From Myxococcales bacterium 68-20 (GTDB lineage: Bacteria; Myxococcota_A; Polyangia; Polyangiales; Polyangiaceae): 64,000 nt of DNA. This document shows positions 23,847 to 54,109 of the stretch, piece by piece. Location: positions 124,001-188,000 of the forward strand of contig MKVQ01000001.1 of the NCBI GenBank assembly GCA_001899635.1. The letters run 5' to 3'. The notes under the pieces are model-generated. The model was not told the DNA's origin. It saw nothing but the letters and a program-made list of their open reading frames with translations, and did not search any database. The position numbers were made by a program, and so were the translations under genes. Numbering within the stretch: position 1 is the first letter of the stretch; each line of letters starts with the position of its first letter.

Positions 23847-24437
23847 TCAGAGGGCGGCCTTGCGTGGGCGGTGGCACTCTCCCGTCAGTGGCTCCACCGA
23901 GAGGTGCGGGACATCTTCGCTCCAGACGTCACCGAGCGTTCGCTTCTGGATCAGCGCGCGGAGCACGCGGATCGGCCCCGCGTGGGTCACGAGCAAGCAC
24001 GGCGTTCGAGTCTCGTCGAGGAGGCCCTGGATACGGAGCATCAGGTCTCCGACTCCCTCGCCGCCGGGAGCTCGCGCGTGTTGCCAGCTCGTCATCCACT
24101 CGCTGAACGCCGGGCCGTCGTCGCGCTCGAGCTCCTCCCACGTCCGCCCCTCCCATCGACCGAAATCGAGCTCGCGGAGTCGTGCGTCGATCCGAGGCGC
24201 CGGCAGGCCGAGCGCCCGGGCCATCGCCTCGGCGAGCGTGCGTGTTCGCGCGCTCGGAGACGTGACGATCGATGCGAACGGGAGCGCCTGCGACGAGGCG
24301 GGGCCGAGCACGTCGATGCTCGCGATGGCCACGCGCGCCGCTTCCTCCGCGGCAGGCGCGACCGGGACGTCGAGCTGACCGTAACAGAGCCCGCTCACCT
24401 GTGCCGGTGCGTGCCGGACCACGAACAGATGCATCAT
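23847..24437 (-). CDS. cobC: Histidine phosphatase, probable alpha-ribazole phosphatase CobC
   Basis: A 196-residue histidine phosphatase family protein that would remove the 5'-phosphate from alpha-ribazole-5'-phosphate or adenosylcobalamin-5'-phosphate, the last step of B12 assembly. The phosphohistidine motif is MMHLFVVRHAPAQ; the second catalytic His is in LLVTHAGPIRVL; the acidic residue lies in LRELDFGRWEG, which is typical of CobC. The start at 24437 gives a classic ATGA overlap with the stop of cobS; an ATG nine bases upstream is the alternative. The position as last gene of the riboswitch operon supports CobC over general phosphoglycerate mutases. Confidence 0.9.
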   Translation of the reverse strand: MMHLFVVRHAPAQVSGLCYGQLDVPVAPAAEEAARVAIASIDVLGPASSQALPFASIVTSPSARTRTLAEAMARALGLPAPRIDARLRELDFGRWEGRTWEELERDDGPAFSEWMTSWQHARAPGGEGVGDLMLRIQGLLDETRTPCLLVTHAGPIRVLRALIQKRTLGDVWSEDVPHLSVEPLTGECHRPRKAAL

Positions 24438-25333
24438 CGCCTCCATGCGAGCGCGGCAAGCACCGCGATCTCGCAGAGCTGCTCCGTCGTTCCGAGAAAG
24501 TCGCCCGTGATGCCGCCCACGCGCTTTCGGTAGCGCCACTCCGTCAGCGCGCCGATGACGAAACACGAGAGCGCAGCTGCGAGCAGGCGGAGCCACGACA
24601 CGGCGCCGGTCGACGCGAGCGCTGCTGCTAGAGCGAGCGGATAGCCGCTCCCGACGGCGGCCTGCAATCGCCCCGCGCGAACGACGTCCCGACTCTTGCT
24701 GCCTTGCTCGGTCGCGTACGGTGAGCGCAGCATCTGCCAGAGCGGCACCGCGCGAGCGAGCGAGCCGACGAAGGCGACGGCCCCGATGGTCTCGAGCGAC
24801 GGCGGCAGCGCGGAGAGGAGCGCAGCTCGACTGACGAAGCTGAAACAGAGCGCGATCGCTCCGAACGATCCGACGCGACTGTCCTTGAGGATGTGAAGGA
24901 CCTTCTCTCGGTCGTAGGCGCCGCCGAGCGCATCGCTCGTGTCCGCGAGACCGTCCTCGTGAAACGCACCCGTCGCGAGAAGCGACAGACCCAGCGTGAG
25001 GGCGGCCGAGGCGAGGGCGCCGAGCGGATGGAGCAACACGTACACTGCACCGAGGACCCCGCCGAGCACGAGGCCGACGAGGGGGAAGTGCGCCGTCGCC
25101 CACCGCCAGTCCGTCCGCGCATACGGGAACCCGCCGACCGGCACTCGTGTCAGGAAGACGAACGCGGCACGCATCCCGCGGAAGAAGCTCGGCGCCGGGA
25201 CGACTCTCGGAGCGACCTCGTCGGCGCGCGACGGCAGCGCCGCCTCGGAGCTCGACCCCAACACCGTGCGAGGAGCGGATCGCGGCGAGGCGTCGACATG
25301 GACGTCGTCGTCGGCTCGGTCACGGTTCTCCAT
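24434..25333 (-). CDS. cobS: Adenosylcobinamide-GDP ribazoletransferase (cobalamin synthase) CobS
   Basis: A 299-residue integral membrane enzyme joining adenosylcobinamide-GDP and alpha-ribazole to give adenosylcobalamin. The family motif GAFHEDGLADTSDALGG (acidic, Mg-binding) is intact, as is the C-terminal GDFLGTTEQLCEIAVL. Around six hydrophobic helices are present. It has an unusual ~50-residue hydrophilic N-terminal extension, beyond which FFRGMRAAFVFLTRVPVGG matches the normal CobS start; a later start is possible. Its 5' end overlaps cobT by 14 bp and its 3' end overlaps cobC by 4 bp, so the three are coupled. Confidence 0.94.
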   Translation of the reverse strand: MENRDRADDDVHVDASPRSAPRTVLGSSSEAALPSRADEVAPRVVPAPSFFRGMRAAFVFLTRVPVGGFPYARTDWRWATAHFPLVGLVLGGVLGAVYVLLHPLGALASAALTLGLSLLATGAFHEDGLADTSDALGGAYDREKVLHILKDSRVGSFGAIALCFSFVSRAALLSALPPSLETIGAVAFVGSLARAVPLWQMLRSPYATEQGSKSRDVVRAGRLQAAVGSGYPLALAAALASTGAVSWLRLLAAALSCFVIGALTEWRYRKRVGGITGDFLGTTEQLCEIAVLAALAWRR

Positions 25334-26438
25334 GCGAGTCCTCCATCGAGAGCACCGTCGTCAACGTGGCGACTTCCCGTTCCACGGCGAGAGCGGAGCG
25401 AAGAAGCGACAGTCCGAGCGCAGCCCCCGTGCCTTCGCCGACTCCGAGACCGAGCGTCATCAGGGCCTCGAGGCCGAGAGCGCGGAGCGCGACCTCTGCT
25501 CCCTTCTCCGTCGAGTGATGGCTCGCGACGAGGTACGAGCCGACGTTGGGATCCATCTCGCGCGCCACGAGCGCCGACGCGGATGCGAGGAAGCCGTCGA
25601 GGACGACGAGCCGGCGCGCACGGGCGGCGCCGACGATGAACCCCGCCATCGCAGCGAGCTCGAGACCGCCTACCTCGCCGAGGAGATGGATCGGGTCTCG
25701 ACTCACCACGCGACGAAGCGCCTCGCGGACGACCTCGATCTTGCGCGCGAGGCCTTCGTCGCTGAGGCCTGCGCCGCGGCCGACGACGTCGCGAGGGTCG
25801 AGGTCGGTGAGCGCGCAGACGAGCGCGGCTGCGCTCGTGGTGTTTCCGATGCCGACCTCACCGACCCCGAGCGCGTCGAACCCATCGAGCTCGGTCGCCG
25901 CGTGCATCCCGACGGCCACGGCGGCCTCTGCTTCCGCCGCGGACATCGCCGCCTCGCGCCGCAGGTTGTTCGTTCCCGCTCGCACCCTACGCCGGGCGAT
26001 TCGGACCTCGGGATCGTCCGGGAACGGGTCATGACCGTCATGGAGCCCGACGTCGAACACGCGGAGCTCGACGCCTGCTGCGCGCGCGAGCGCGTTGACC
26101 GTGGCGCGTCCGCGAGCGATCGTCGCGACGACGGCGGCAGTGACGCTCGACGGATAGGAGCTGACTCCCTCCGCCACGACCCCGTGATCGGCGGCGAAGA
26201 CGGCGATGCACGTCGTGGGCGTGCCCTGCCTGAGCGGCACCGGAAACGTGCCGCGGGCCTCGGCGAACCGAGTCGCGAGCCGCTCGAGGACGCCGAGCGA
26301 GCCCTTCGGGGCTGCGAGCGTCGCCCAGTGCGCTCGGCACATGTCTCCCGCGAGCCGCGAGACCTCCGGCACCCGGGGAGGGGATGGCGCGTTCAGCGCG
26401 AGCTCGGCACGCCGCGCGTCGGGCGGAGCTTCGGTCAT
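25320..26438 (-). CDS. cobT: Nicotinate-nucleotide-dimethylbenzimidazole phosphoribosyltransferase CobT
   Basis: A 372-residue cytoplasmic enzyme that makes alpha-ribazole-5'-phosphate, activating the lower ligand of B12. Conserved blocks are PKGSLGVLERLA near the N-terminus, VFAADHGVVAEGVS, EVGIGNTTSAAALVCALT, VGRGAGLSDEGLARK and LGVGEGTGAAL, whose Glu is the catalytic base in the family. The start at 26438 forms an ATGA overlap with the stop of the upstream propeller lipoprotein gene. Length and motifs are normal for CobT. Confidence 0.95.
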   Translation of the reverse strand: MTEAPPDARRAELALNAPSPPRVPEVSRLAGDMCRAHWATLAAPKGSLGVLERLATRFAEARGTFPVPLRQGTPTTCIAVFAADHGVVAEGVSSYPSSVTAAVVATIARGRATVNALARAAGVELRVFDVGLHDGHDPFPDDPEVRIARRRVRAGTNNLRREAAMSAAEAEAAVAVGMHAATELDGFDALGVGEVGIGNTTSAAALVCALTDLDPRDVVGRGAGLSDEGLARKIEVVREALRRVVSRDPIHLLGEVGGLELAAMAGFIVGAARARRLVVLDGFLASASALVAREMDPNVGSYLVASHHSTEKGAEVALRALGLEALMTLGLGVGEGTGAALGLSLLRSALAVEREVATLTTVLSMEDSHGEP

Positions 26439-27670
26439 GGCGCGCTCGAGCGAGCCGTCATCGGTCCGATGGCCCCGACGGATCGCGGTGGGAGGCTCGA
26501 GCCTTCGAGCGGTGCCAGCGGTCGCGCGCTCGTCGCGTCGACCGCGAGGAGCGACGCTTCTTCCGCGCTCGGCACGAGGCATCGATCGCCACAACCGCAG
26601 GCGATCTCACCGAGCGTGAACGACGCTGGCGCGGTGTGGAGCGTGGTCGCGCGGCCGGTGCCGACGTCGATGCTCGTCAGCTTGTCGCCGGGATCGCCGA
26701 ACACGACGACGATGAGCGCGTCGTTCGTCGCGAAGCCGATGGATGACGCGACAGCTCCGCCCAGCATCGAGGCCGTCGCCCGCACTCGCTCCGTCTTCGA
26801 CTCGAGATCCATGACGACCACGCCGCTCGTCGCGACCTGCGCGGGGCCCGGGACCTTGAAGATGCCGCTGCACGTGACCGCGAGGGAGCGAGCGTCCGGA
26901 GAGAGGGCGAGGTTGGTGCAGTTCTTCAGCCCCGGGATCGGCAGGGTGTCGACGACGCGATCCGAGTCGACGTCGATCACGACGACGAGCCCGTCCTCCG
27001 CACGCTCGAACGACGCGTCTAGCCGGCTGAGCGTCACGTACGCGCGCCCGTTGGCCAGCGTCATGCGGTCCGGCCGCGGGTCGACGGCGCCGCCGTAGGC
27101 CGAGAGCTCGATGCGCTTCGAGAGCGATCGCTGGGAGGGGTCGATCACGAGGATGTCTCCGCCCTCGTCGAAGGGCACTCGACCCGGCGCCCGATTGGTC
27201 TCGAACCGCGTCACGTAGGCCTTGTTCGGCGTGATCTCGAGGTAGTCGTGCGGATTCGACCCAAACCCCGGGGTGACGTTGAGCTGACCTTCGACCGCGC
27301 CGCTCTCGGCGTCGAGCCACGTGACGATGCCGTTCGGATAGCGGTCGATGAGGACCAGAGCCCCCGACGCCGGTGGATCGTGCGGCAGCACCACGTCGCT
27401 GGAGAGCGCCGACGTGGCCCCAGGCGCTCGTGTCCCGCTCGAGACGATGCTGGCCGAGGTCACCGCGCCGCCGTCGTTCACGAGCGAGACCTGCGTCGAC
27501 TGGTAGTCCGAGCGAACGAGCGCGAAGCGTTCGCACGTGTCGCCGCGCGAGCCTCCGGTGGAGCTCTGCGGGGCGTCGACGTTGCATGCGCCGAGGAGCG
27601 CAAGCGCCGCCAACGTCGGACCGAAGCTGATTCGAAACGTGCCCGGCGACAGCCGGATTCCGCAGTTCAT
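26435..27670 (-). CDS. Beta-propeller lipoprotein next to BtuB (BtuG-like candidate)
   Basis: A 411-residue exported lipoprotein. The signal peptide ends in the lipobox ALLGAC (Cys at about 29). The mature part is made of repeated beta blades in YncE style (GALVLIDRYPNGIVTWLDAE, DILVIDPSQRSLSKRIELS, LVVVIDVDSDRVVDTLPIPG, NLALSPDARSLAVTC). It also has several Cys residues (CGCGDRC) that may form disulphides. Its ATG overlaps the btuB stop (ATGA) and its stop overlaps cobT, placing it in a B12-riboswitch operon. In Bacteroides, BtuG is a propeller lipoprotein that caps BtuB and captures cobalamin; the same arrangement here makes a cobalamin-binding role likely but unproven. Confidence 0.82.
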   Translation of the reverse strand: MNCGIRLSPGTFRISFGPTLAALALLGACNVDAPQSSTGGSRGDTCERFALVRSDYQSTQVSLVNDGGAVTSASIVSSGTRAPGATSALSSDVVLPHDPPASGALVLIDRYPNGIVTWLDAESGAVEGQLNVTPGFGSNPHDYLEITPNKAYVTRFETNRAPGRVPFDEGGDILVIDPSQRSLSKRIELSAYGGAVDPRPDRMTLANGRAYVTLSRLDASFERAEDGLVVVIDVDSDRVVDTLPIPGLKNCTNLALSPDARSLAVTCSGIFKVPGPAQVATSGVVVMDLESKTERVRATASMLGGAVASSIGFATNDALIVVVFGDPGDKLTSIDVGTGRATTLHTAPASFTLGEIACGCGDRCLVPSAEEASLLAVDATSARPLAPLEGSSLPPRSVGAIGPMTARSSAP

Positions 27671-29703
27671 AGAAAGACCTCCATGCTGGCGAAGATGGCG
27701 CGGCCGGGGAGCACGAAGCCCACGGTGTCGAACCGAGTGACTCCGAGCAGGTTCCTGACCCGAACATCGAAGGCGGTGTGGTCGCCGAGGCAGGCGACCG
27801 TGATCGCTGCATCGAGCGTGGATTGGGCAGGGATCACGATCAGCCCTTCGGGATCCGCGTAGCGGCTCGACTCGTGGACGTGAGCCATCGACAGCGTGCT
27901 CGTCTTCGCGCCGAGGACATGCGGTCCGTCGAAGCGCAGCTCGGCGACGAGCGACGACTTGAGCCTCGACCGGAAGGGCAACAGATCGTTGCCGGTCGTG
28001 CGCTCCGTGTCCCGTCCGTCGAAGAGGGTCAGCCCCGCGCCCAGCGACAGCCGCCAGAGCTCCGCGCGTGCGTCGAGCTCGGCGCCGAGCACACGAGCGG
28101 AGCCGAGGTTGTACGGCGTCACGTATCCGAGCGAGGACCGCCGGAAGGCGACCAGATCGCTGGCCTCTCGCGCAAAGAGGGAGCCCGCGAGCTCCCAGCG
28201 GAGCACGGCAGCCCCCGTCGTCGAGGTGATCGACGGGAGCTTGGTCAGGCGGACGCCGGTGTCGACGAGCAGCCCGCGCTCGGCGCGAAGCGCGCCGTTC
28301 CCGCGCACGACGCCCGAGAAGCCGTAGAGCTCGCCCAGCGTCGGCGCGCGATAGTACGAGCCCGCATTCAGCGCGACGACGCCGGCGTCGAACGGACGCG
28401 AGAGGGCGAGCCTGAGAGCGCCGTACGTGCGAGTGTCGTCAGCGAGACCGTCGGTCGTGGCCTGCTTCTCGAGCGCGCCCATCAACACGGCGCGCCCGAG
28501 GCGCTCGTGTCGAACGCCACCGCTCGCGGCGAGCCTGACCCCGTCCCGGTGGCGGCGCTCCTCGCTTCGATCGACGGTCACGGTCGCCGTGGACAGCGCT
28601 TCGCGGCTCACTCGCCCGTGCACGCTCCCCTCGAAGATCCCGCGGCGAAGGGCGAGCCGACTGGATGCCTCGGCACGCAGGCCTTCGAGCAGCGCGCGCC
28701 GCCTCCCACCCGCAAGCTCGAGGAGCGGGTCGTCGTACGCCGACGACGTCATGACGAGGCCGGTGGCTCCCGTGAGCACGCAGCCCGCACCGCACTCGTG
28801 GACGAGCTCGAGACCATGAAGCGAGCGACGCGTCTTCGCTCGAGTGGCCTTCGCTCCAGCGACCGCCAGTCCCGGCACACCCTGCTCTCGCGCGAGCTCG
28901 TTCCACGTCAACGACGCGCGGGTGGTGGTCCCCAGTCGAACCCGTCCCAATGCCCACATGTCGATGTCGTCGACGTCGGCGTTCTCCCGGCGCTGCTCGC
29001 GGTCGTCGGACGCGTCGAAGCGGGTCCCGCGGTCGTCCACGAACGTGTAGTCGTTGCGCGCGCCGGCGGCGCGAACGCCGACGAGAGCGGCCGCTCGCTC
29101 GTCGCCGAGGCCGACGCGTCCCTCGAGGGCGCGCATCCCGAAGCTGCCTCGCGTCGCCACCGCCTTCGCCTCGGTGCGCGTGGGGACACGAGGCTCGAAG
29201 AAGATGGCTCCGCCGATGCCCCACGGATCGGCCTCGAGCGGCACCGCACCGCGATAGACCTCGATGCGTCCGATCATCCAGAGCGGAACGCGGGAGAGGT
29301 CGGCGTCGCCGGTGAGGTCGTCGTTGAGCCGAAGCCCAGCGAGGAAGACGCTCGTCTGCGCTGCGGTCGCGCCTCGGATCGCCGCGGTCGAGAGCGCCCC
29401 GTACCCACCGGTCTCGGTGACGTTGACCCCGGTCTCGCGGCGGAGGACGTCGGACGTCGACACGCCCGCGCCCTCCAGCGCGGACCCGCGGAGCTGCGAT
29501 GAAGTGGCCGCCTCGTCGCGCGACCCTGCGGCGAGCCGAGCGCCACGGACGGTGACCGCCTCCTCGCCCCTCGCTGCCGCGGGCCATCCAGCGACGAGAA
29601 GCCCGCCGAGGACCACGCCTCGAAGTCGAGGCCTGGCCGAATGCCGAAGACCGTTTCCCACGCCGACCCGAAGGGACGAGACGAAGGCGCTCTCCGCCGG
29701 CAC
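27667..29703 (-). CDS. btuB: TonB-dependent cobalamin receptor BtuB
   Basis: A 678-residue outer-membrane receptor. An N-terminal signal peptide (VVLGGLLVAGWPAAARG) is followed by a TonB-box-like EEAVTVRGA and the plug domain (STSDVLRRETGVNVTETGGY, AIRGATAAQTSVFLAGLRLN, RIEVYRGAVPLEADPWGIGG). The barrel then runs to a C-terminus with the beta-signal IFASMEVFL. It is the first gene after a cobalamin riboswitch and is followed by a propeller lipoprotein and cobT-cobS-cobC, which identifies the substrate as a corrinoid. The start used is the GTG at 29703; an internal GTG about 15 codons in would also give a signal peptide. Confidence 0.93.
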   Translation of the reverse strand: MPAESAFVSSLRVGVGNGLRHSARPRLRGVVLGGLLVAGWPAAARGEEAVTVRGARLAAGSRDEAATSSQLRGSALEGAGVSTSDVLRRETGVNVTETGGYGALSTAAIRGATAAQTSVFLAGLRLNDDLTGDADLSRVPLWMIGRIEVYRGAVPLEADPWGIGGAIFFEPRVPTRTEAKAVATRGSFGMRALEGRVGLGDERAAALVGVRAAGARNDYTFVDDRGTRFDASDDREQRRENADVDDIDMWALGRVRLGTTTRASLTWNELAREQGVPGLAVAGAKATRAKTRRSLHGLELVHECGAGCVLTGATGLVMTSSAYDDPLLELAGGRRRALLEGLRAEASSRLALRRGIFEGSVHGRVSREALSTATVTVDRSEERRHRDGVRLAASGGVRHERLGRAVLMGALEKQATTDGLADDTRTYGALRLALSRPFDAGVVALNAGSYYRAPTLGELYGFSGVVRGNGALRAERGLLVDTGVRLTKLPSITSTTGAAVLRWELAGSLFAREASDLVAFRRSSLGYVTPYNLGSARVLGAELDARAELWRLSLGAGLTLFDGRDTERTTGNDLLPFRSRLKSSLVAELRFDGPHVLGAKTSTLSMAHVHESSRYADPEGLIVIPAQSTLDAAITVACLGDHTAFDVRVRNLLGVTRFDTVGFVLPGRAIFASMEVFL

Positions 29704-29787
29704 CGGATGTGTCGGGCGAAGAGCTCTTGCGTGCCGGCGTCTCTCCCTCGGAGACGAACGGCGGAACCACCAGGCATGTGCGTGGTG

Positions 29788-29980
29788 GGTGAAGGTCGGT
29801 CTTCGGGCTCATGGGCACTTCGCGGCTAACGGAGCTAGCGCGACTTCCTCGCTTCAACTCTTCCCGGTCCGGAGACCAGTGACTCGGTGAAGCTCGTTCC
29901 CAACTACCGCTGCGGGGCAGCTCCGCTTTGCTTGCGCTGCGGATTCCCAGTACCACCCATCACCGGGTGGCTACCTTCAC
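29788..29980 (-). promoter_or_regulatory. Cobalamin riboswitch upstream of btuB
   Basis: On the minus strand the leader contains GGGAATCCGC, the core GCCCCGCAGCGGTAGTTGGG and the B12 box GAGCCCGAAGACCGACC. The ends pair as P1, GTGAAGGT (29980-29973) with ACCTTCAC (29796-29789). Downstream, a stem from CCACCA and TGGTGG lies between the aptamer and the btuB start and could be the expression platform. It controls the five-gene btuB-cobC operon and is expected to switch it off when adenosylcobalamin binds. Confidence 0.93.
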
Positions 29981-30288
29981 GAGGTCGTCGATACCCTACC
30001 CCATGCAGGTCGTCAAACGCCGGCGCCGGGCACGCGCCTGCGGTCGCGGCCGGCCATCGGCGTCGAAGGTTCCTCGTTCGTCGCTTCGGACGGCGAGAGC
30101 GCTCGTTTGCCCCGCGAGCACGGGCCCATTGCTCGTGTGGGTATCGACCCGCACGCCGGTTCCTCCTCGCGCGGCAGCATGAACATGCGATGCGCGCGAG
30201 CTCGCTCTTTCCCCGATATTTGGGGTTCGGGATGATGCGATCGACGAACGACTCGATCGCGCATCGTCGACGACCACAAGAGGAGCTC

Positions 30289-47936: not shown

Positions 47937-48725
47937 TCACGGGCATTCCGCGTTCACGATCGCCACCGCGTCGAGGTCGAAGACGGTGTCGAGGTCGGGG
48001 CGATCCGTGATGCGCACGTATCGAGCGCGGGCGACCCCGATGTCGCGCAGGTCGTAGGTGTCGCCGCCGGAGACGCTCGGATCGAGCGGATCGACGCCGT
48101 TGTCCGGACGAGAGAGGACCGGCTCGACCCCCGCGCAGTAGCCGAAGTCGGTCGCTTCGGGCCCGGCGGTGCACGGGAACTCGTGCCAGGTGACTCCGTC
48201 TTCGCTCACGGCGACGGTCGCGAGCTCCCTGAAGGTCCCGAACGGGTTCTCGAACACGGTGAAGTCGACGCCGGGACCGTCGACGATCGCATTGCCTGCG
48301 AACTCGACGACGACGTAGCCGCCGTTCCCGAGCGAGACGACCGATGACGGGTCGCCCGCGTGAGGAGGTCCGTAAAGGGCTGCGGGGAAGCCGCCGACCT
48401 GATTGTGGTCCTGGCCGCTGCCAAAGCGATGATCGACGACGCCGGTGATGAAGCGCGCGCCCGGTCCGGCTTCGCACGTGCCAGCCTCGTACGAGCTGCC
48501 GCCATCGCGGTCGCTGCCGTCGATGGCGGCCCCGCCGTCCCTCGTGCGGGGGCGTGAGCTCGCCCCGTCCGGGCAGTCGTCGTCGCTGCACCAGCCGATG
48601 CCCTGGCCGCTCGGCTCGTCGAGGAGCTTGCCTCCGCAGGCCCCGAGGGCGAGCGCAGCGATCGAATTGATCGCGATGGCTGCGCTCGCGCCGAAGCCTC
48701 GAAGCGATCTGGGAGTGAACCGCAT
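47937..48725 (-). CDS. Exported lipoprotein of the B12-regulated operon (third gene)
   Basis: A 262-residue lipoprotein: signal with lipobox ALALGACGG (Cys at about 30), a ~60-residue acidic, Ser/Asp/Gly-rich linker, then a beta-rich domain with VVVEFAGNAIVDGPG, DFTVFENPFGTFRELATVAV, SEDGVTWHEFPC and RYVRITDRPDLDTVFDLDAV. The pattern recalls discoidin-like or carbohydrate/ligand-binding modules of surface proteins. It is the third gene behind the riboswitch at 50976-51167, 17 bp after the propeller gene. A corrinoid-binding surface function is inferred from position only. Confidence 0.78.
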   Translation of the reverse strand: MRFTPRSLRGFGASAAIAINSIAALALGACGGKLLDEPSGQGIGWCSDDDCPDGASSRPRTRDGGAAIDGSDRDGGSSYEAGTCEAGPGARFITGVVDHRFGSGQDHNQVGGFPAALYGPPHAGDPSSVVSLGNGGYVVVEFAGNAIVDGPGVDFTVFENPFGTFRELATVAVSEDGVTWHEFPCTAGPEATDFGYCAGVEPVLSRPDNGVDPLDPSVSGGDTYDLRDIGVARARYVRITDRPDLDTVFDLDAVAIVNAECP

Positions 48726-48742
48726 CGTCGGTCGTCCAGCGA

Positions 48743-50164
48743 TCAGTAGAACGGCGCGGTCGTCGCCCAGCGGGCCTTGAAGAGCGCGTAGTCGGTCCAG
48801 TCGATCTTTCCGTCGCGGTTCAGGTCGCAACGAGCGTCGTAGTTCGAGCCGCCCGTCGCCGCGTCGAAGGCGTCGACGAAGACCGAGAAGTCCTTGCCCG
48901 ACACGATGCCGTCGTTGTCGAAGTCGACATCGGCGACGTCACCGAAGCCGTCGCCGTCGCTGTCGGTCTGATCGGGATTGGGCGTGAGATACGCGTTGTC
49001 GGCGCCGTCGGGGATGCCGTCGCCGTCCGTGTCGGGGGCGTCGGGGGGGAAGTAGAGCTGCACGGTGGCGCTCCCGCTCGCGGCGCCGTTGTCCATCGGC
49101 GCGCAGTTCGGCGGCTTCGACGCGAGGTTGGCGCTGACGACGAGCATCTTGAGCGAGGAGACGTACTGCACGTTCGTGAAGTCGTCGTTCTTGCAGGGAT
49201 CCGGCGCCATCACGGTGAACTCGCCGGGCATCGATCTGTCGAGTGGGTCGCCACCGGCGAGGACGCGCGTGAGGACGTCGCCGTGAATCAGCGCGGCATA
49301 GCCGTAGTCACCAGACCCACCGAACGCGTCGCCGCCGCCGACGTAGAGGTTGTTGTCGGCGTCGAAGCCGAGCGACGCTGCGCTGAGGACCCCCGCTGCC
49401 AGCACGTGCCCCGTGCTCGAGTAGGCAAGGGGAGCGCCGTCCGGAGCGAGCGCCGTTGCGACGTCGCCGGCCGGCCAGATCTTGAGCTCCCCCGTATTCG
49501 TGCCGTAACCGATGCCGGTCACGAGGTTTCCGAAGCGGTCGACCGTGATGCCGGCGGAGGCTCCCGGCACGTTCTCGATGAGGGGGATGAAGGCGGAGGC
49601 CGGGTTGGCGAGGTACGTGTCGATCGCGTAGACCCGGCTTCCGGTGGGCCCCTCGCTGTTGATGAGGAGGTAGCGCGCGTCCCGCCAGACGGCGTCGTAG
49701 TAGTTCGCGTTGAACCGCTTCACCTGGGCATGCGTGCTCAGGTTCGGAGGGGCGTTGACGCTGAGTAGGTTCGACCCGACGAGGTAGAGCGGCTGGAAGT
49801 ACCCGATGCCGAGCGCGATCGTCGCGCCGTCGGGCGAGATCTTCACGAAGCTCGGGTCCATGTTCGAGGCGACCTTCGCCACGGGGAGCCACACGCTCGA
49901 GCCGAAGTTCTTCTGGAGGTAGATGGTGCTGTCGTTGGCCGCGATGAGCCGCCCCTTCAGCGCATAGCCGTCGATGACCGCCGACGTGCCGGGCCCGAAC
50001 GAGTCCATGAGCGTCGCGTAGCTCGTCGTCCGGGGCGGGAGCGTGATCGAATAGCTGCCCTTCGTGTCGTACTCGCCGAAGGCCTCGGCGGCGGCGCGGC
50101 GTGCAGGGAGAACGATGCTCGCCGTGGCAACGCAGGCGACGATCGTGCGGGTCAAGGCGTTCAT
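48743..50164 (-). CDS. Exported beta-propeller protein with TSP3/dockerin-like calcium repeats
   Basis: A 473-residue secreted protein. A signal peptide ([23 protein letters not shown]) precedes a propeller-like domain with blades such as [40 protein letters not shown] and [18 protein letters not shown]. Residues ~370-420 contain thrombospondin type 3-like [13 protein letters not shown] and [16 protein letters not shown]. The C-terminus has two dockerin-like loops, [16 protein letters not shown] and [16 protein letters not shown]. It has no lipobox, so it may be released or tethered through the dockerin-like part. Its ATG overlaps the upstream lipoprotein stop (ATGA). Being B12-regulated, it is a second candidate corrinoid-capture propeller. 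Confidence 0.82.
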
Positions 50165-50799
50165 CGGCCACCATCCTTTGCGGTCGTGAGGGTCATCCAC
50201 GGCCCGCCCTTGCAGCCCGCACCGAGCGCATTCGCGTTCGACTTCGGCGCAGCGAAGGCGGCGGCTACGTCCGCCATCTCTTCGGCGGCGACGCACAGGT
50301 GGAGGCGCGAACCGTCCTGGAGCGCGTCCGTCGTCCAGTCGACGCGCGCGTAGGTCGCGTTCTCGGAGGTGGCGACGAAGGTCTTCTGATCGGGGCACGT
50401 CTCGACGACGCGCCAGAGCGTGGGCGGCTTCGCCGGCACCGGAGCGCCGCCGGGCACTCGCGTGTACGTCGTCGCGCTCGCCGTCTTTCGCAGCCAGTGC
50501 TCCGTGCCGCTGCCGTCGACGTAGTCGCCGGTCACGGGCAGCACCGTTCCGCCGGTGCACGCCTGCGCGGGGACGGACGCGTCGCCGCCGTCGTCATCGC
50601 TGCCGCTGTCCGCCGGGCTGCCCGCGTCTTCCGGTCGCTCGCGTCCCGCATCGTGATCTCCGCTCGGAGCGCTCGCGCCTGAGTCTTCGCCTCCGCCTCG
50701 GTGCGTGTCGTTCGTCTTGCCATCGCAGCCCGTGGCCGCGAGGGCGCACGCGAGCAGCGCCGCGCCGACGTGCAGCTTCCTTCCGTCGATGAGCCTCAT
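50161..50799 (-). CDS. Exported lipoprotein, first gene of the B12-regulated operon
   Basis: A 212-residue lipoprotein. The signal peptide [19 protein letters not shown] has the lipobox Cys at about 25. An acidic Asp/Ser/Gly/Glu linker (~26-80) is followed by a ~130-residue domain containing [36 protein letters not shown] and [18 protein letters not shown], with several Cys residues. I do not recognise the domain. It is the first gene downstream (minus strand) of a cobalamin riboswitch and overlaps the propeller gene. The frame upstream of 50799 lacks a ribosome site. Confidence 0.8.
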
Positions 50800-50975
50800 C
50801 CGCTGTCTCCAGTTCCCGCGATGTCCCGCGATGCGAGGGGAGAGCCGCGTGGAGGCGTCGAGAGGCGGAGAGGGCGGCGGTGCGACGTTCGTGGAGGAGA
50901 ACGCTTGCCCTCGTGGCCTGCCGGCCTTCCCCACGAAGGCTCGTCAGAAGCGCTCGTCCGTCACCGGGCGGGCGC

Positions 50976-51167
50976 GCTCTCGGCAGGTCTTCGGACTCAC
51001 GAGCGCTGCGATCGTCACCGATCGCTTTCCTACCGGTCATCGCTTCCCAGGCGCAGGCGCCCAGTGCTTCGTGATGACTTTCGTTCTCGATTACCGCTGC
51101 GGGGCAGTCCCGGATTCACACCGGGTTCCCTTTTCAGCCCGTGGGACAGCAGCCCAACGAGCACCGA
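50976..51167 (-). promoter_or_regulatory. Cobalamin riboswitch, left-facing
   Basis: Minus-strand sequence shows AAGGGAACCCGGTGTGAATC, then GGGACTGCCCCGCAGCGGTA, a long P-arm region, and the B12 box GTGAGTCCGAAGACCTGCC. These are the full cobalamin aptamer landmarks in order; the exact P1 ends are approximate. It precedes the three-gene operon 50799-47937 and is expected to repress it when corrinoid is plentiful. Confidence 0.95.
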
Positions 51168-51228
51168 TAGCGAGCGACCGGATACTGCGGAGGGTCGAGG
51201 GTGTCAATCGGAGCGCGCGTCCTCTCGC

Positions 51229-51352
51229 GCACGCTGTTCGCTCGACGCTTCGTGCACGCTGTTCGCTCGACGTCGCGTGCTCGCTCATCGCTCGACGCTG
51301 CGAGCTCGTTCGTCGCGCGCATTCCTCGCTCATTCGTCGCTCGACGCATCGC
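51229..51352. repeat. 25-bp imperfect tandem repeat, five copies
   Basis: Copies start at 51229, 51254, 51279, 51304 and 51328; the shared core is TTCGCTCGACG or TCGCTCGACG, and copies 1 and 2 are identical over their first 19 bases. It lies in the 287-bp strip between the two divergent riboswitches, where both promoters must be. It does not look like protein-coding sequence. Confidence 0.75.
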
Positions 51353-51454
51353 CGCGGAGTCACACCGAGATCGTCGCGCTTCACGGCCGCGCGGTGCGTC
51401 GCTTCGCGACGTGTTCCTTGACGGACTTGCATCGTGCCTGTTACGGCACCGATC

Positions 51455-51598
51455 GCCATATGCCGTCGGTCCCGGTGGACTGACATTATGGGAATCCGGT
51501 GTGAATCCGGAGCTGCCCCGCAGCGGTAATGGTGAATGAGGCTGATTCTCTTTCGAGGATCGGTCGATTCCACCGAAGCCCGAAGACCTGGTGATGGC
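51455..51598 (+). promoter_or_regulatory. Cobalamin riboswitch, right-facing
   Basis: The leader has GGGAATCCGGTGTGAATCCG, GAGCTGCCCCGCAGCGGTAA, and the B12 box GAAGCCCGAAGACCTGG at 51574-51590. Outer ends GCCAT (51455-51459) and ATGGC (51594-51598) can pair in P1. It precedes the lipoprotein gene at 51786 with a further ~190-nt leader. Back to back with the riboswitch at 50976-51167. Confidence 0.95.
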
Positions 51599-51785
51599 CC
51601 GAGCCGACGTCTCTTCGACCGCTGGCTCGTGTTGTCTGGCTCTGCCTCGAGGGTAGGCATCCGGTCACCGAAGCGTGGTCGTACTTCGTGCACCACCGCC
51701 TGATCGCGGCGGACGCGTGGCTCTTCAGCCTCATCCGTAGAGAGCCGTCGCGCAGCAGGTCTCATCAACGATTGCGAGCGTTCTC

Positions 51786-53390
51786 ATGCGTGTTTCCCGA
51801 GGTGTTCTCGCGGCCTTCTCGTGCGTCGCGCTGCTTGCTTACGTGGGGTGTGGCGCGGCCGACGATGGCCAGCCCGGGGCGGACGGCGCCAATGGAGCGA
51901 ATGGAGCGAACGGGACGAACGGAGCAGACGGAACGAACGGAACGAACGGAACGAATGGAAAGAACGGGACGGACGGGACGAGCGGAACGAACGGAAAGAC
52001 GTCACTGATCGCGACGTCGGACGAGCCGGCGGGCGCGAATTGCCGCGAAGGCGGCAAGCGGATCGACACGGGGATCGACGCCAACGGAAACGGCGTCCTC
52101 GATCCGCAGGAGAAGGGCACGCCGACGTACGTCTGCAACGGAGCGGCGGGAGAGGCCGCAGAGGACGGCCTTTCGGCGCGCATCCGGACTTCGGCAGAGC
52201 TCGCGGGCAACCACTGCGCCTTCGGTGGCATCGCGATCGAGGTCGGCGTCGATGCGAACGGCAACGGCGTCCTCGACGACGGCGAGGTCGATGCCGGCGC
52301 GACCAAGTACATCTGCAACACCGCGCCGGCCTGGTCGGAGCTTGCCGCCCTCCCGTCCGTGACGACGGCCTACAGCTTCGCGCTCGCCGTCAACGAGGTC
52401 GACGATGGTGCGCGTCTCGGGTTCATGTTCGGCGACCCGGCCTACCGCCAGGCATTGACGGACGAAGGGCAGATCTGGGACGGCGGTGGCGTCTACAGCG
52501 GCCCGAACGTGTTCGCGGTCTACAACCTCCAAGGGTTCGGCGCTCAGTCGCGCTGGAAGGCGTACCAAGGCCGCTACACGCCGCAGTTCTACTCGTACTC
52601 GGAGCTCTCGTTCGACAACGGAAGCTCGTACTACACGACCAACTACTCGGCGTTCGGAGGTCTCGTCTCGGTCGTCAAGGACGGCGGCACGGGAACCTAC
52701 GCGCTCACGCCGGCCTACACAGGAAGCCGCGCGCACAGCGTCGCGTTCGTCGATCACGTCCTCTACGCGCTGATCGCGCAGAGGAACGTGGGACTGACGC
52801 TGTCGAGGTTCCCGGTCGCGAGCTTCGGCCAACTCTCGAATCTCTGGACCAACCTCGCGACGGTCGAAGCCGCGGCGACGAACGCGACCGCGCCGAAGCT
52901 GATCCGCGCGGGCAATACGCTCGTCGGCGCCTATCTCGCCGGTGGAAGGGCGAGCGTCCGGGCGACGTCCACGCCCGGCAGCGTCGCCCAGGCGTCGGAC
53001 TTCGTGGAGATCGGCAGCTGCGCAGACGCCACGCGCGTCGACGTCGCGTGGGCGGACTCGAAGCTCTACGTCGCCTGCGTCGCAGCGGACGGCGAGCTCA
53101 CCGTTCGCAGCGCCGCCATCGCCGACCTGAACGCGGTCGCGTGGACGCCGGTCGTCACCGGCGTCGTCGGTCCGGTGAGCGATCTCGATCTGTCGGGGCT
53201 CGGCACGCGTGTCTCGCTCGCCGTTCGTCAGGGCACCGCGGTGCGCGCGTACGCGTCGATTTCGGATGCTACGCCCTCGTTCGACGCCGTTCTCCCCGGG
53301 GCGTTCGATCTCCAGGTCGCCAAGGAGGGGCTCGTCCTCTCGGTGTGCGATCTGGCCGGCAACAAGACCGTTCGCACCTTCCTCCACTGA
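51786..53390 (+). CDS. B12-regulated lipoprotein with collagen-like repeat
   Basis: A 534-residue exported lipoprotein with lipobox LLAYVGCG (Cys at about 22). Next is a collagen-like Gly-x-x stretch (about 30-75) of GAN/GTN/GTD triplets. Two short repeats follow, TGIDANGNGVLDPQEKG and VGVDANGNGVLDDGEVDAG, which look like calcium-binding loops. The remaining ~380 residues form a beta-rich, propeller-like domain (SRAHSVAFVDHVLYALIAQR, TRVDVAWADSKLYVACVAAD) in which the blades lack catalytic residues. It follows a cobalamin riboswitch and ends at a strong terminator. Surface corrinoid capture is a reasonable but untested inference. Confidence 0.82.
   Translation: MRVSRGVLAAFSCVALLAYVGCGAADDGQPGADGANGANGANGTNGADGTNGTNGTNGKNGTDGTSGTNGKTSLIATSDEPAGANCREGGKRIDTGIDANGNGVLDPQEKGTPTYVCNGAAGEAAEDGLSARIRTSAELAGNHCAFGGIAIEVGVDANGNGVLDDGEVDAGATKYICNTAPAWSELAALPSVTTAYSFALAVNEVDDGARLGFMFGDPAYRQALTDEGQIWDGGGVYSGPNVFAVYNLQGFGAQSRWKAYQGRYTPQFYSYSELSFDNGSSYYTTNYSAFGGLVSVVKDGGTGTYALTPAYTGSRAHSVAFVDHVLYALIAQRNVGLTLSRFPVASFGQLSNLWTNLATVEAAATNATAPKLIRAGNTLVGAYLAGGRASVRATSTPGSVAQASDFVEIGSCADATRVDVAWADSKLYVACVAADGELTVRSAAIADLNAVAWTPVVTGVVGPVSDLDLSGLGTRVSLAVRQGTAVRAYASISDATPSFDAVLPGAFDLQVAKEGLVLSVCDLAGNKTVRTFLH
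51891..51998 (+). repeat. 9-bp tandem repeat encoding collagen-like triplets, 12 copies
   Basis: Twelve 9-bp units (consensus AACGGAACG, with variants AATGGAGCG, GACGGGACG) encode Gly-Thr-Asn/Gly-Ala-Asn/Gly-Thr-Asp triplets. Such stretches often vary in copy number between strains and would form a stalk on a surface protein. Confidence 0.9.
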
Positions 53391-53402
53391 GCCAGAAGCG
53401 CG

Positions 53403-53433
53403 AGCGCGTCCCCGGTCGACCTGGGGACGCGCT
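53403..53433 (+). terminator. Rho-independent-like terminator after the B12 lipoprotein gene
   Basis: GCGCGTCCCC pairs perfectly with GGGGACGCGC around GGTCGACCT, extended by an A-T pair, and is followed by TTCGTTTCG. It starts 13 bp after the stop at 53390. The DUF6580 gene 131 bp further on would then depend on read-through or its own promoter. Confidence 0.75.
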
Positions 53434-53563
53434 TCGTTTCGCTGTTCGCGTCATCGTCGATGCCTTGGCGTAGCGACGATGAACCGAGACCCGTGCTGCG
53501 CCGCCGAGCGGTGATGGCCCCGAACGAATCGACGAGCGATCGTCCCAACCACCTCAGGAATCC

Positions 53564-54109
53564 GTGATGCTCCCGACACTCCTCATCGCGCTCTGCGTCG
53601 TCCTTCGCATCGTCCCCCATCCGCCGAACTTCGCGCCCGTCGGCGCTACCGCGGTCTTTGCGGGTCGAACGATGAAGCCGGTGGCGGCGATCGCCGTGGT
53701 CCTCGTCGCGATGTTCGTCGGCGACGTCGCCCTCGCGTGGCTCCGGGGATATCCCGCCGTGAGCGCGGTCACACCCTTCGTCTACGCAGGGTTCATCGTC
53801 CAGGCGCTCCTTGGAATGGCGCTCCGAAAGCGACGTGGAGGCGCGCTCGCCGCTGCCGCGCTCGGCTCGTGCGCGTTCTTCCTGCTCTCGAACCTCGGAG
53901 TCTGGATCGGCGGAGCGATGTACTCCCACGACGCGAGCGGGCTCGCCGCTTGTTTCGTGGCAGCGATCCCGTTCTTCGGGGGCACGCTCCTCGGTGACAT
54001 CGTCTGGACCGCGATCTTGTCGCTCGCGTACCGACCGCTGGCCAGGCGGCTGGCAGCGCGCCCGGGCTGGGTGCCGGTTGCGGGCCGGGCGCTCGAGCCT
54101 GTCGTCTGA
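53564..54109 (+). CDS. DUF6580-type integral membrane protein, candidate B12-linked transporter
   Basis: A 181-residue polytopic membrane protein with about five helices. It starts LLIALCVVLRIVPHPPNFAP, followed by VGATAVFAGRTMKPVAAIAV, with helices such as FVYAGFIVQALLGMAL and SCAFFLLSNLGVWIGGAMY. The N-PPNFAPVGA motif and size match the DUF6580 family as I recall it. That family resembles ECF S-components and often lies near B12-regulated genes. No ECF A/T components are in the window. The distance to the riboswitch (over 1.9 kb, with a terminator between) leaves B12 control uncertain. Confidence 0.78.
   Translation: MMLPTLLIALCVVLRIVPHPPNFAPVGATAVFAGRTMKPVAAIAVVLVAMFVGDVALAWLRGYPAVSAVTPFVYAGFIVQALLGMALRKRRGGALAAAALGSCAFFLLSNLGVWIGGAMYSHDASGLAACFVAAIPFFGGTLLGDIVWTAILSLAYRPLARRLAARPGWVPVAGRALEPVV

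Follow-up and report, generated by a model that had tools for sequence, protein, structure and literature searches.

The closest described counterparts of the locus reported here are the btu loci of Bacteroides (BtuB, BtuG, BtuH, BtuJ and BtuFCD), in which a riboswitch-controlled TonB receptor is combined with a propeller and with extra binding lipoproteins. In two papers (PMC10404256, PMC8941943), structure 8BLW is described as BtuB1G1, BtuG1 bearing a C-terminal BtuH domain, and 7BIZ as BtuH2 with B12; in a third, DUF4465 proteins are reported to be in-vitro binders of B12 and frequent neighbours of B12 transport genes (PMC13398666). According to PMC6072759, BtuM proteins have an invariant cysteine, and the membrane proteins for B12 uptake have not been identified in most prokaryotes. 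Here we describe a locus of Myxococcales bacterium 68-20, located in a 64,000-nucleotide stretch of contig MKVQ01000001.1 (positions 124,001 to 188,000; the window), in which two cobalamin riboswitches stand back to back. The minus-strand switch is followed by genes C-B-A and the plus-strand switch by D and then, 176 bp beyond D, by E. We consider it probable that this locus is a cobalamin-repressed corrinoid-scavenging module in which A and C capture corrinoids and E imports them across the inner membrane. The relevant features of the window are as follows.

50965-51183, minus strand: cobalamin riboswitch aptamer before C-B-A (RF00174, full model)
50161-50799, minus strand: C, lipoprotein bearing an unnamed domain, about 110 residues long (gene call, profile of other C proteins)
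48743-50164, minus strand: B, exported, with a TSP3/dockerin calcium-type tail and an orphan core (gene call, Pfam)
47937-48725, minus strand: A, BtuH-like candidate corrinoid-binding lipoprotein (gene call, profile comparisons, riboswitch linkage)
51466-51590, plus strand: cobalamin riboswitch aptamer before D and E (RF00174); a wider 51455-51598 takes in a possible outer stem (fold)
51786-53390, plus strand: D, lipoprotein with a collagen-like stretch, two DUF7151 repeats and an orphan C-terminal part (gene call, Pfam)
53404-53433, plus strand: GC-rich hairpin in the D-E gap, perhaps a terminator or a site of processing (fold z -4.0)
53567-54109, plus strand: E, inner-membrane protein of the DUF6580 family, candidate for a solitary corrinoid importer of S-component-like type (Pfam, model, neighbours)
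29777-29993, minus strand: third cobalamin riboswitch, before the BtuB-like operon (RF00174, 80.3 bits)
27667-29616, minus strand: BtuB-like TonB-dependent receptor, likely outer-membrane partner (NCBIfam, TonB barrel and plug)
26435-27670, minus strand: propeller lipoprotein, BtuG/YncE type (NCBIfam, profile of 15 relatives)
24434-26372, minus strand: cobT and cobS, in the same operon as the BtuB-like receptor (Pfam DBI_PRT, CobS)

Unlike the Bacteroides btu loci, this one has divergent switches, a switch pair without its own btuB, an S-component-like protein and the unnamed C domain. In the Rfam search suggested by an earlier note on this DNA, both aptamers of the pair cleared the RF00174 gathering score of 31.5 bits. 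The minus-strand match scored 111.6 bits (E-value 3.9e-27) and is a complete aptamer covering model positions 1-189; the plus-strand match, the weaker of the pair, scored 55.0 bits (6.2e-11) over positions 21-170. All riboswitch statements here rest on Rfam, a regular-expression scan with both misses and false matches having been used only for picking loci. The host genome (11.9 Mb, 52 contigs) contains seven RF00174 matches, and the first genes behind them encode C, D, the BtuB-like receptor, in L008 a class I ribonucleotide reductase, and in L009, L010 and L011 a lipoprotein each. The last of these, L011_259, is 42% identical to A and starts 89 bp after its own riboswitch. Back-to-back riboswitches were also seen in L068, L110, L111 and L112, and in L110 and L112 they separate a TonB receptor from an A-family protein.

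Protein A (262 aa) has a lipoprotein-type start; lipoprotein and export signals of the window proteins were judged by eye from their N-termini. Conservation of its neighbourhood across Myxococcota, another point that the earlier note had raised, was borne out: the family occurs in 141 of 235 Myxococcota genomes, at 149 places, at least 61 of which have a same-strand RF00174 match upstream within 7 kb. Among the matches listed, the same distance held none of the 149 with a same-strand switch downstream, five with an opposite-strand switch upstream and four with one downstream. Links were found in 22 of 40 genomes that had been picked for showing none in the first riboswitch list. For locus reading we took 60 regions, three of them for DUF6580 and many others for a listed riboswitch, and A was called in 48. 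In these partly switch-selected loci we found an upstream switch in 36, a BtuB-like gene within 4.5 kb in 17, a propeller in 14 and a C gene adjoining A in 16. The operons that recur in this computational reading include apparently complete btu-type arrangements. Thus, L122 and L123 have the order riboswitch, TonB receptor, propeller, A, Peripla_BP_2, FecCD and ABC_tran, the last three being BtuF-, BtuC- and BtuD-type genes recognised by family match and the propeller being recognised by our own profile only. L228 has a riboswitch followed by genes for an exported protein, A, a TonB receptor and a DUF5074 propeller.

A has no Pfam family. A profile of 16 A sequences, searched against 177,635 PDB sequences, gave three matches with an E-value up to 10, namely 8blw_B (residues 374-497, 7.8e-4), 7biz_A (residues 190-315, 0.058) and the unrelated 2hdw_A (0.45). 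With a 47-sequence profile, the E-value was 0.0016 for 7biz_A and 0.16 for 2hdw_A, and 8blw_B was absent from the matches. These comparisons suggest a weak but specific similarity to BtuH. Like two proteins of Bacteroides thetaiotaomicron, BtuH2 and, with its BtuH domain, BtuG1, A is a riboswitch-linked, predicted surface lipoprotein encoded with a TonB receptor and a propeller. BtuH uses calcium, and A has conserved acidic residues (D154, D176 and D225, kept in 47 of 47 sequences). In contrast to BtuH, A has no PKD repeats by Pfam and aligns over only half of the domain; we treat it as a candidate corrinoid binder. The exported B12 binders of the DUF4465/BtuJ type co-occur with A: in L230 a single protein behind a riboswitch fuses DUF4465 and A, and in L231 A adjoins a DUF4465 gene. 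A itself is not a DUF4465 protein (PF14717), neither A nor 16 relatives matching this family at E-values up to 1; an assignment as LIC_13355 lipoprotein was likewise rejected (19.7 bits against a cut-off of 120). Plasmid sequences contained no relatives of A or E, and none of 92 pattern matches to A in viral contigs was confirmed. A small lipoprotein family with a Rieske domain, assigned by family match in L091 (7689-8126), is encoded directly or closely downstream of A there and in L092, L094, L095 and L096.

Protein C (212 aa, lipoprotein-type start) belongs with A by genomic context. Many loci encode its domain (about 110 residues), in one to three copies, in the interval from riboswitch to A, and in L103_4 it is fused in front of the A domain. 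The window C matched a profile of other C proteins at 25.5 bits (E-value 4e-7 for 518 sequences), the best of 2000 shuffles reaching 11.1 bits. We found no relative of C in Pfam, NCBIfam or PDB (no PDB match with an E-value below 0.8). A role of C in corrinoid capture is moderately supported.

Protein E (180 aa) matched PF20221 (DUF6580) at 131.9 bits against a Pfam cut-off of 27. Its sequence had no relative in PDB, the one match being unrelated (E-value 0.7). An AlphaFold2 model computed with 81 sequences has six helices in an S-component fold (predicted local distance difference test score, pLDDT, 94.2; predicted template-modelling score, pTM, 0.88). In a Foldseek comparison with PDB no match had an E-value below 0.001; the top two rows were BtuM with cobalamins (E-values 0.04 and 0.07, probability 1.00, template-modelling score 0.65), followed by other S-components. 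VIA gave Z scores of 13.5 and 13.4 for BtuM, 12.4 for 4huq_S and 12.3 for a folate S-component, on a scale where helical folds may give unspecific values as high as about 13. E thus resembles BtuM of Thiobacillus denitrificans (8C7P, 8OVV) in its predicted S-component fold and in its link to cobalamin, and it may work like BtuM, without an energy-coupling factor (ECF) module. CbiQ/EcfT (PF02361) was not found in the host genome, which is 98.4% complete, the search being positive in 10 of 14 control genomes. The two proteins share only 13% identity over 158 residues. All 81 DUF6580 sequences have R14, H18, N21, F104, N109, W113, Y119, G125 and P135. Unlike BtuM with its cobalt-ligating cysteine, the family has no invariant Cys column (position 129 holds Cys in 63 of the 81 sequences), and E was therefore not filed as a BtuM.

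DUF6580 is frequent outside Myxococcota, with at least 573 confirmed relatives, of which the best 80 were used. Seven B12-linked families were sought near 84 DUF6580 loci, 83 of them distinct since L107 and L164 are the same contig. At least one of these families lay within 3 kb in 43 of 84 loci (42 of 83 distinct): a TonB receptor in 21, PduO in 13, NrdJ in 12, a PP-loop ATPase in 11, a BtuF-like protein in six, CobA in two and NrdR in none. Control genes more than 4.5 kb away gave five matches among 348 (two to NrdR, one each to others). The seeds for this count came from the same loci, so that it establishes recurrence rather than an unbiased rate. Several neighbours exceeded NCBIfam cut-offs: adenosylcobalamin (AdoCbl)-dependent ribonucleotide reductase (L137, L142, L190), PduO (L139, L195), CobA (L137), MetE (L128) and cobyric acid synthase (L109). 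For the TonB receptor of L163, siderophore models outscored B12 models, all under cut-off, and the BtuF-like protein of L128 was under all NCBIfam cut-offs. Gene names without a family match (e.g. PP-loop ATPases except those of L108 and L182, NrdR and HemS-like) were read from N-termini, and genes of L107-L109 and L127-L128 were read with a Myxococcota codon model. A PP-loop ATPase resembling diphthamide synthase often stands beside DUF6580 (10 of 83 distinct loci, more by eye; PF01902 in L108 and L182). L106, an IMG/VR contig, looks cellular, with several tRNAs, a tmRNA and a TonB receptor overlapping the DUF6580 gene.

Among 31 named DUF6580 loci, partly picked by motif scan from 80 (the remaining 49 include loci of the candidate phyla radiation, CPR), RF00174 was present in 20 and lay upstream on the same strand in 13. 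The distance from RF00174 to the DUF6580 gene behind it is 163 bp in L199, 176 bp in L203 and 189 bp in L196. L128, from a Labilithrix sp. and with 61% identity in its best segment, has a riboswitch followed by metE, DUF6580 and a BtuF-like gene; in this record (ACE_MYX5, L128 7900-8542) DUF6580 is frame-shifted, perhaps by an assembly error. The families of A and E, which lie on opposite sides of the window switches, share one operon elsewhere. In L182, a Rokubacteria record, the order is riboswitch, A, PF01902 ATPase, DUF6580 and Peripla_BP_2, and in L154 (Pedosphaera, Verrucomicrobia) it is riboswitch, A, PP-loop, DUF6580 and BtuF-like gene. A was also present in 7 of 50 genomes reached via DUF6580 loci. 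Riboswitches, btu-type operons, the DUF4465 fusion, the BtuH similarity and the BtuM-like fold together make a role of A and E in corrinoid uptake well supported.

An outer-membrane gate, missing from the divergent pair, is likely supplied by the operon behind the third riboswitch, at a distance of 21 kb. This operon (23847-29993, minus strand), to which the earlier note does not refer, consists of the switch followed by genes for the BtuB-like receptor, the propeller lipoprotein, cobT, cobS and a histidine phosphatase. The receptor has a TonB barrel and plug, and its top NCBIfam model was TonB-B12 (79 bits, under the cut-off of 600). For the propeller lipoprotein, the profile of 15 relatives matched YncE-type propellers, and BtuG structures at an E-value of about 0.002. 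We did not assign this propeller to BtuG specifically, generic YncE-type propellers being the better match. We infer the following sequence of events. When B12 is scarce, both riboswitches would allow expression, repression by cobalamin being relieved. Lipid-anchored A and C would then bind corrinoids at the cell surface, A via its BtuH-like domain. The corrinoid would be handed to the BtuB-like TonB receptor encoded beside the propeller lipoprotein. Finally E, a stand-alone protein of predicted S-component fold whose closest relative of solved structure is BtuM, would move the corrinoid across the inner membrane into the cytoplasm.

The remaining two proteins of the locus gave little information. 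B (473 aa) is exported and has TSP3 and Dockerin_1 domains by Pfam, its other family matches being weak (SBBP, E-value 0.35). A full-length query mostly matched calcium repeats of other proteins, and the core was therefore searched alone. It occurred in two of 144 genomes of the class, the host included, the second at an E-value of 2e-4 over 86 residues, and its single PDB match was a hydrazine synthase propeller (0.6). B was also missed by the propeller profile of its neighbours, and its identification as BtuG is unsupported. D (534 aa) has a lipoprotein-type start with DUF7151 and Collagen domains by Pfam; its tail was found in one of the 144 genomes, the host itself, and had no PDB relative with an E-value below 0.8. 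The earlier note had placed two lipoproteins and an exported propeller on the left and a collagen-like lipoprotein with a DUF6580 protein on the right. The right side stands as described, as do the lipoprotein-type starts of A and C and the export of B; the propeller has no family match. The surface corrinoid capture with an inner-membrane step that the note proposed holds well for A and E and moderately for C, three of the five proteins, B and D being orphans.

Several results weigh against a scavenging module. The plus aptamer is weak, and its Rfam alignment lacks the outer stem, so that of the two full aptamers claimed earlier only the minus one is complete by this measure; a minimum free energy fold of 51450-51605 does close an outer stem, GCCAU/AUGGC (z -2.3, 4 of 200 shuffles equally good). 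The BtuH match of A is weak and covers only part of the domain (about 110-125 residues by profile), and a predicted model of A from three sequences had a pLDDT of 44.6. For B and D, which have no informative relatives, a capture role is unsupported. DUF6580 is rare in Myxococcota, with 4 of 235 genomes having it, and A is missing from the two named members that carry E (L127, L128). Furthermore, 41 of 84 DUF6580 loci had none of the sought B12-linked families nearby, and 11 of the 31 tested named loci and four of four others had no riboswitch in the stretch examined. To these points must be added the hairpin behind D and the permeases of the host genome, which also speak for a rival explanation.

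It is possible, if improbable, that the capture half is right and that E is expressed independently, the inner-membrane step being carried out by a BtuCD-type ABC transporter encoded elsewhere. The strong hairpin between D and E leaves co-transcription of E in doubt and, together with the intervening gap, favours its independence; a terminator scan of this gap found none, the hairpin lacking a U run, and the short distances from RF00174 to DUF6580 in L199, L203 and L196 also argue against independence. Two FecCD permeases are encoded in the host genome, each scoring best, though under cut-off, with the BtuC model, so that a second import route is possible and E need not be the sole one. However, one of these genes is solitary and the other belongs to an operon of heme-type appearance, a type that we presume from its neighbours, and neither is at a riboswitch among the matches listed. 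Elsewhere, BtuC- and BtuD-type genes (names from N-termini) follow DUF6580 in L109, and in G046, G076 and G143 the DUF6580 contig carries no riboswitch among the matches listed.

We regard it as unlikely that the substrate of E is part of the cofactor or one of its precursors (cobinamide, lower-ligand base or cobalt), or another vitamin, instead of complete corrinoids. The S-component fold serves many substrates, and with VIA the folate, riboflavin, thiamin and biotin proteins scored Z 11-12 against 13.5 for BtuM, and a cobalt transporter subunit 10.0; the cobyric acid synthase of L109 would also fit such a role. Yet DUF6580 neighbours use or adenosylate corrinoid (AdoCbl-dependent ribonucleotide reductase, PduO, CobA), and the TonB receptors nearby point to import of the whole corrinoid. 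There is still less to be said for A, B, C and D being surface lipoproteins of an ordinary kind that have only B12 control in common, for example as replacements of B12-dependent functions, and do not bind corrinoid. A host riboswitch does control a class I ribonucleotide reductase (L008), a typical replacement enzyme, and the orphan status of B and D is consistent with this explanation, but A occurs within complete btu-type operons, has DUF4465 as a fusion partner or neighbour, and is BtuH-like. We therefore retain a corrinoid-scavenging module as the probable function of the locus.

With respect to DUF6580 as a whole, we lean towards the view that these are new, widespread, stand-alone corrinoid importers of S-component type, with an invariant R..PHP.N motif in place of BtuM's cysteine. 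They would serve B12 scavengers in Myxococcota, Bacteroidota, Acidobacteriota, Gammaproteobacteria and CPR (Patescibacteria), and here would be paired with A and C under divergent riboswitches. In CPR, where DUF6580 stands beside a B12-dependent ribonucleotide reductase and an adenosyltransferase, it may be the B12 importer. Our literature searches, with preprints and most subscription journals outside their scope, found no paper naming DUF6580 among 5.39 million and, among the titles listed, none on riboswitch-controlled corrinoid lipoproteins of Myxococcota or on DUF6580; the main text of a 2024 survey of S-component folds, as far as available, contains neither 'DUF' nor 'PF20221' (PMC11109136). 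The BtuH literature that we found concerns Bacteroidetes and DUF4465. Several lines of evidence thus point three uncharacterised families (A, C and DUF6580) to corrinoid uptake, and DUF6580, a family without a function, becomes a candidate vitamin transporter common to many unrelated bacteria. If this is correct, there is now a candidate for the vitamin importer of B12-dependent CPR bacteria, and the BtuH-type surface binder reaches beyond gut Bacteroidetes to Myxococcota and other phyla.

Inspection of the riboswitch regions revealed some further features. Imperfect direct repeats with a 25-base period lie between the divergent switches (51214-51347). Elsewhere in the host genome, the riboswitch of L009 (6042-16973) is followed by a gene for a lipoprotein of no assigned family, two small genes, IcmF, another gene and methylmalonyl-CoA mutase. 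In L010 (8109-9681), a riboswitch at the contig end precedes a propeller-type lipoprotein that is 26% identical to the propeller lipoprotein of the window (E-value 3e-6).

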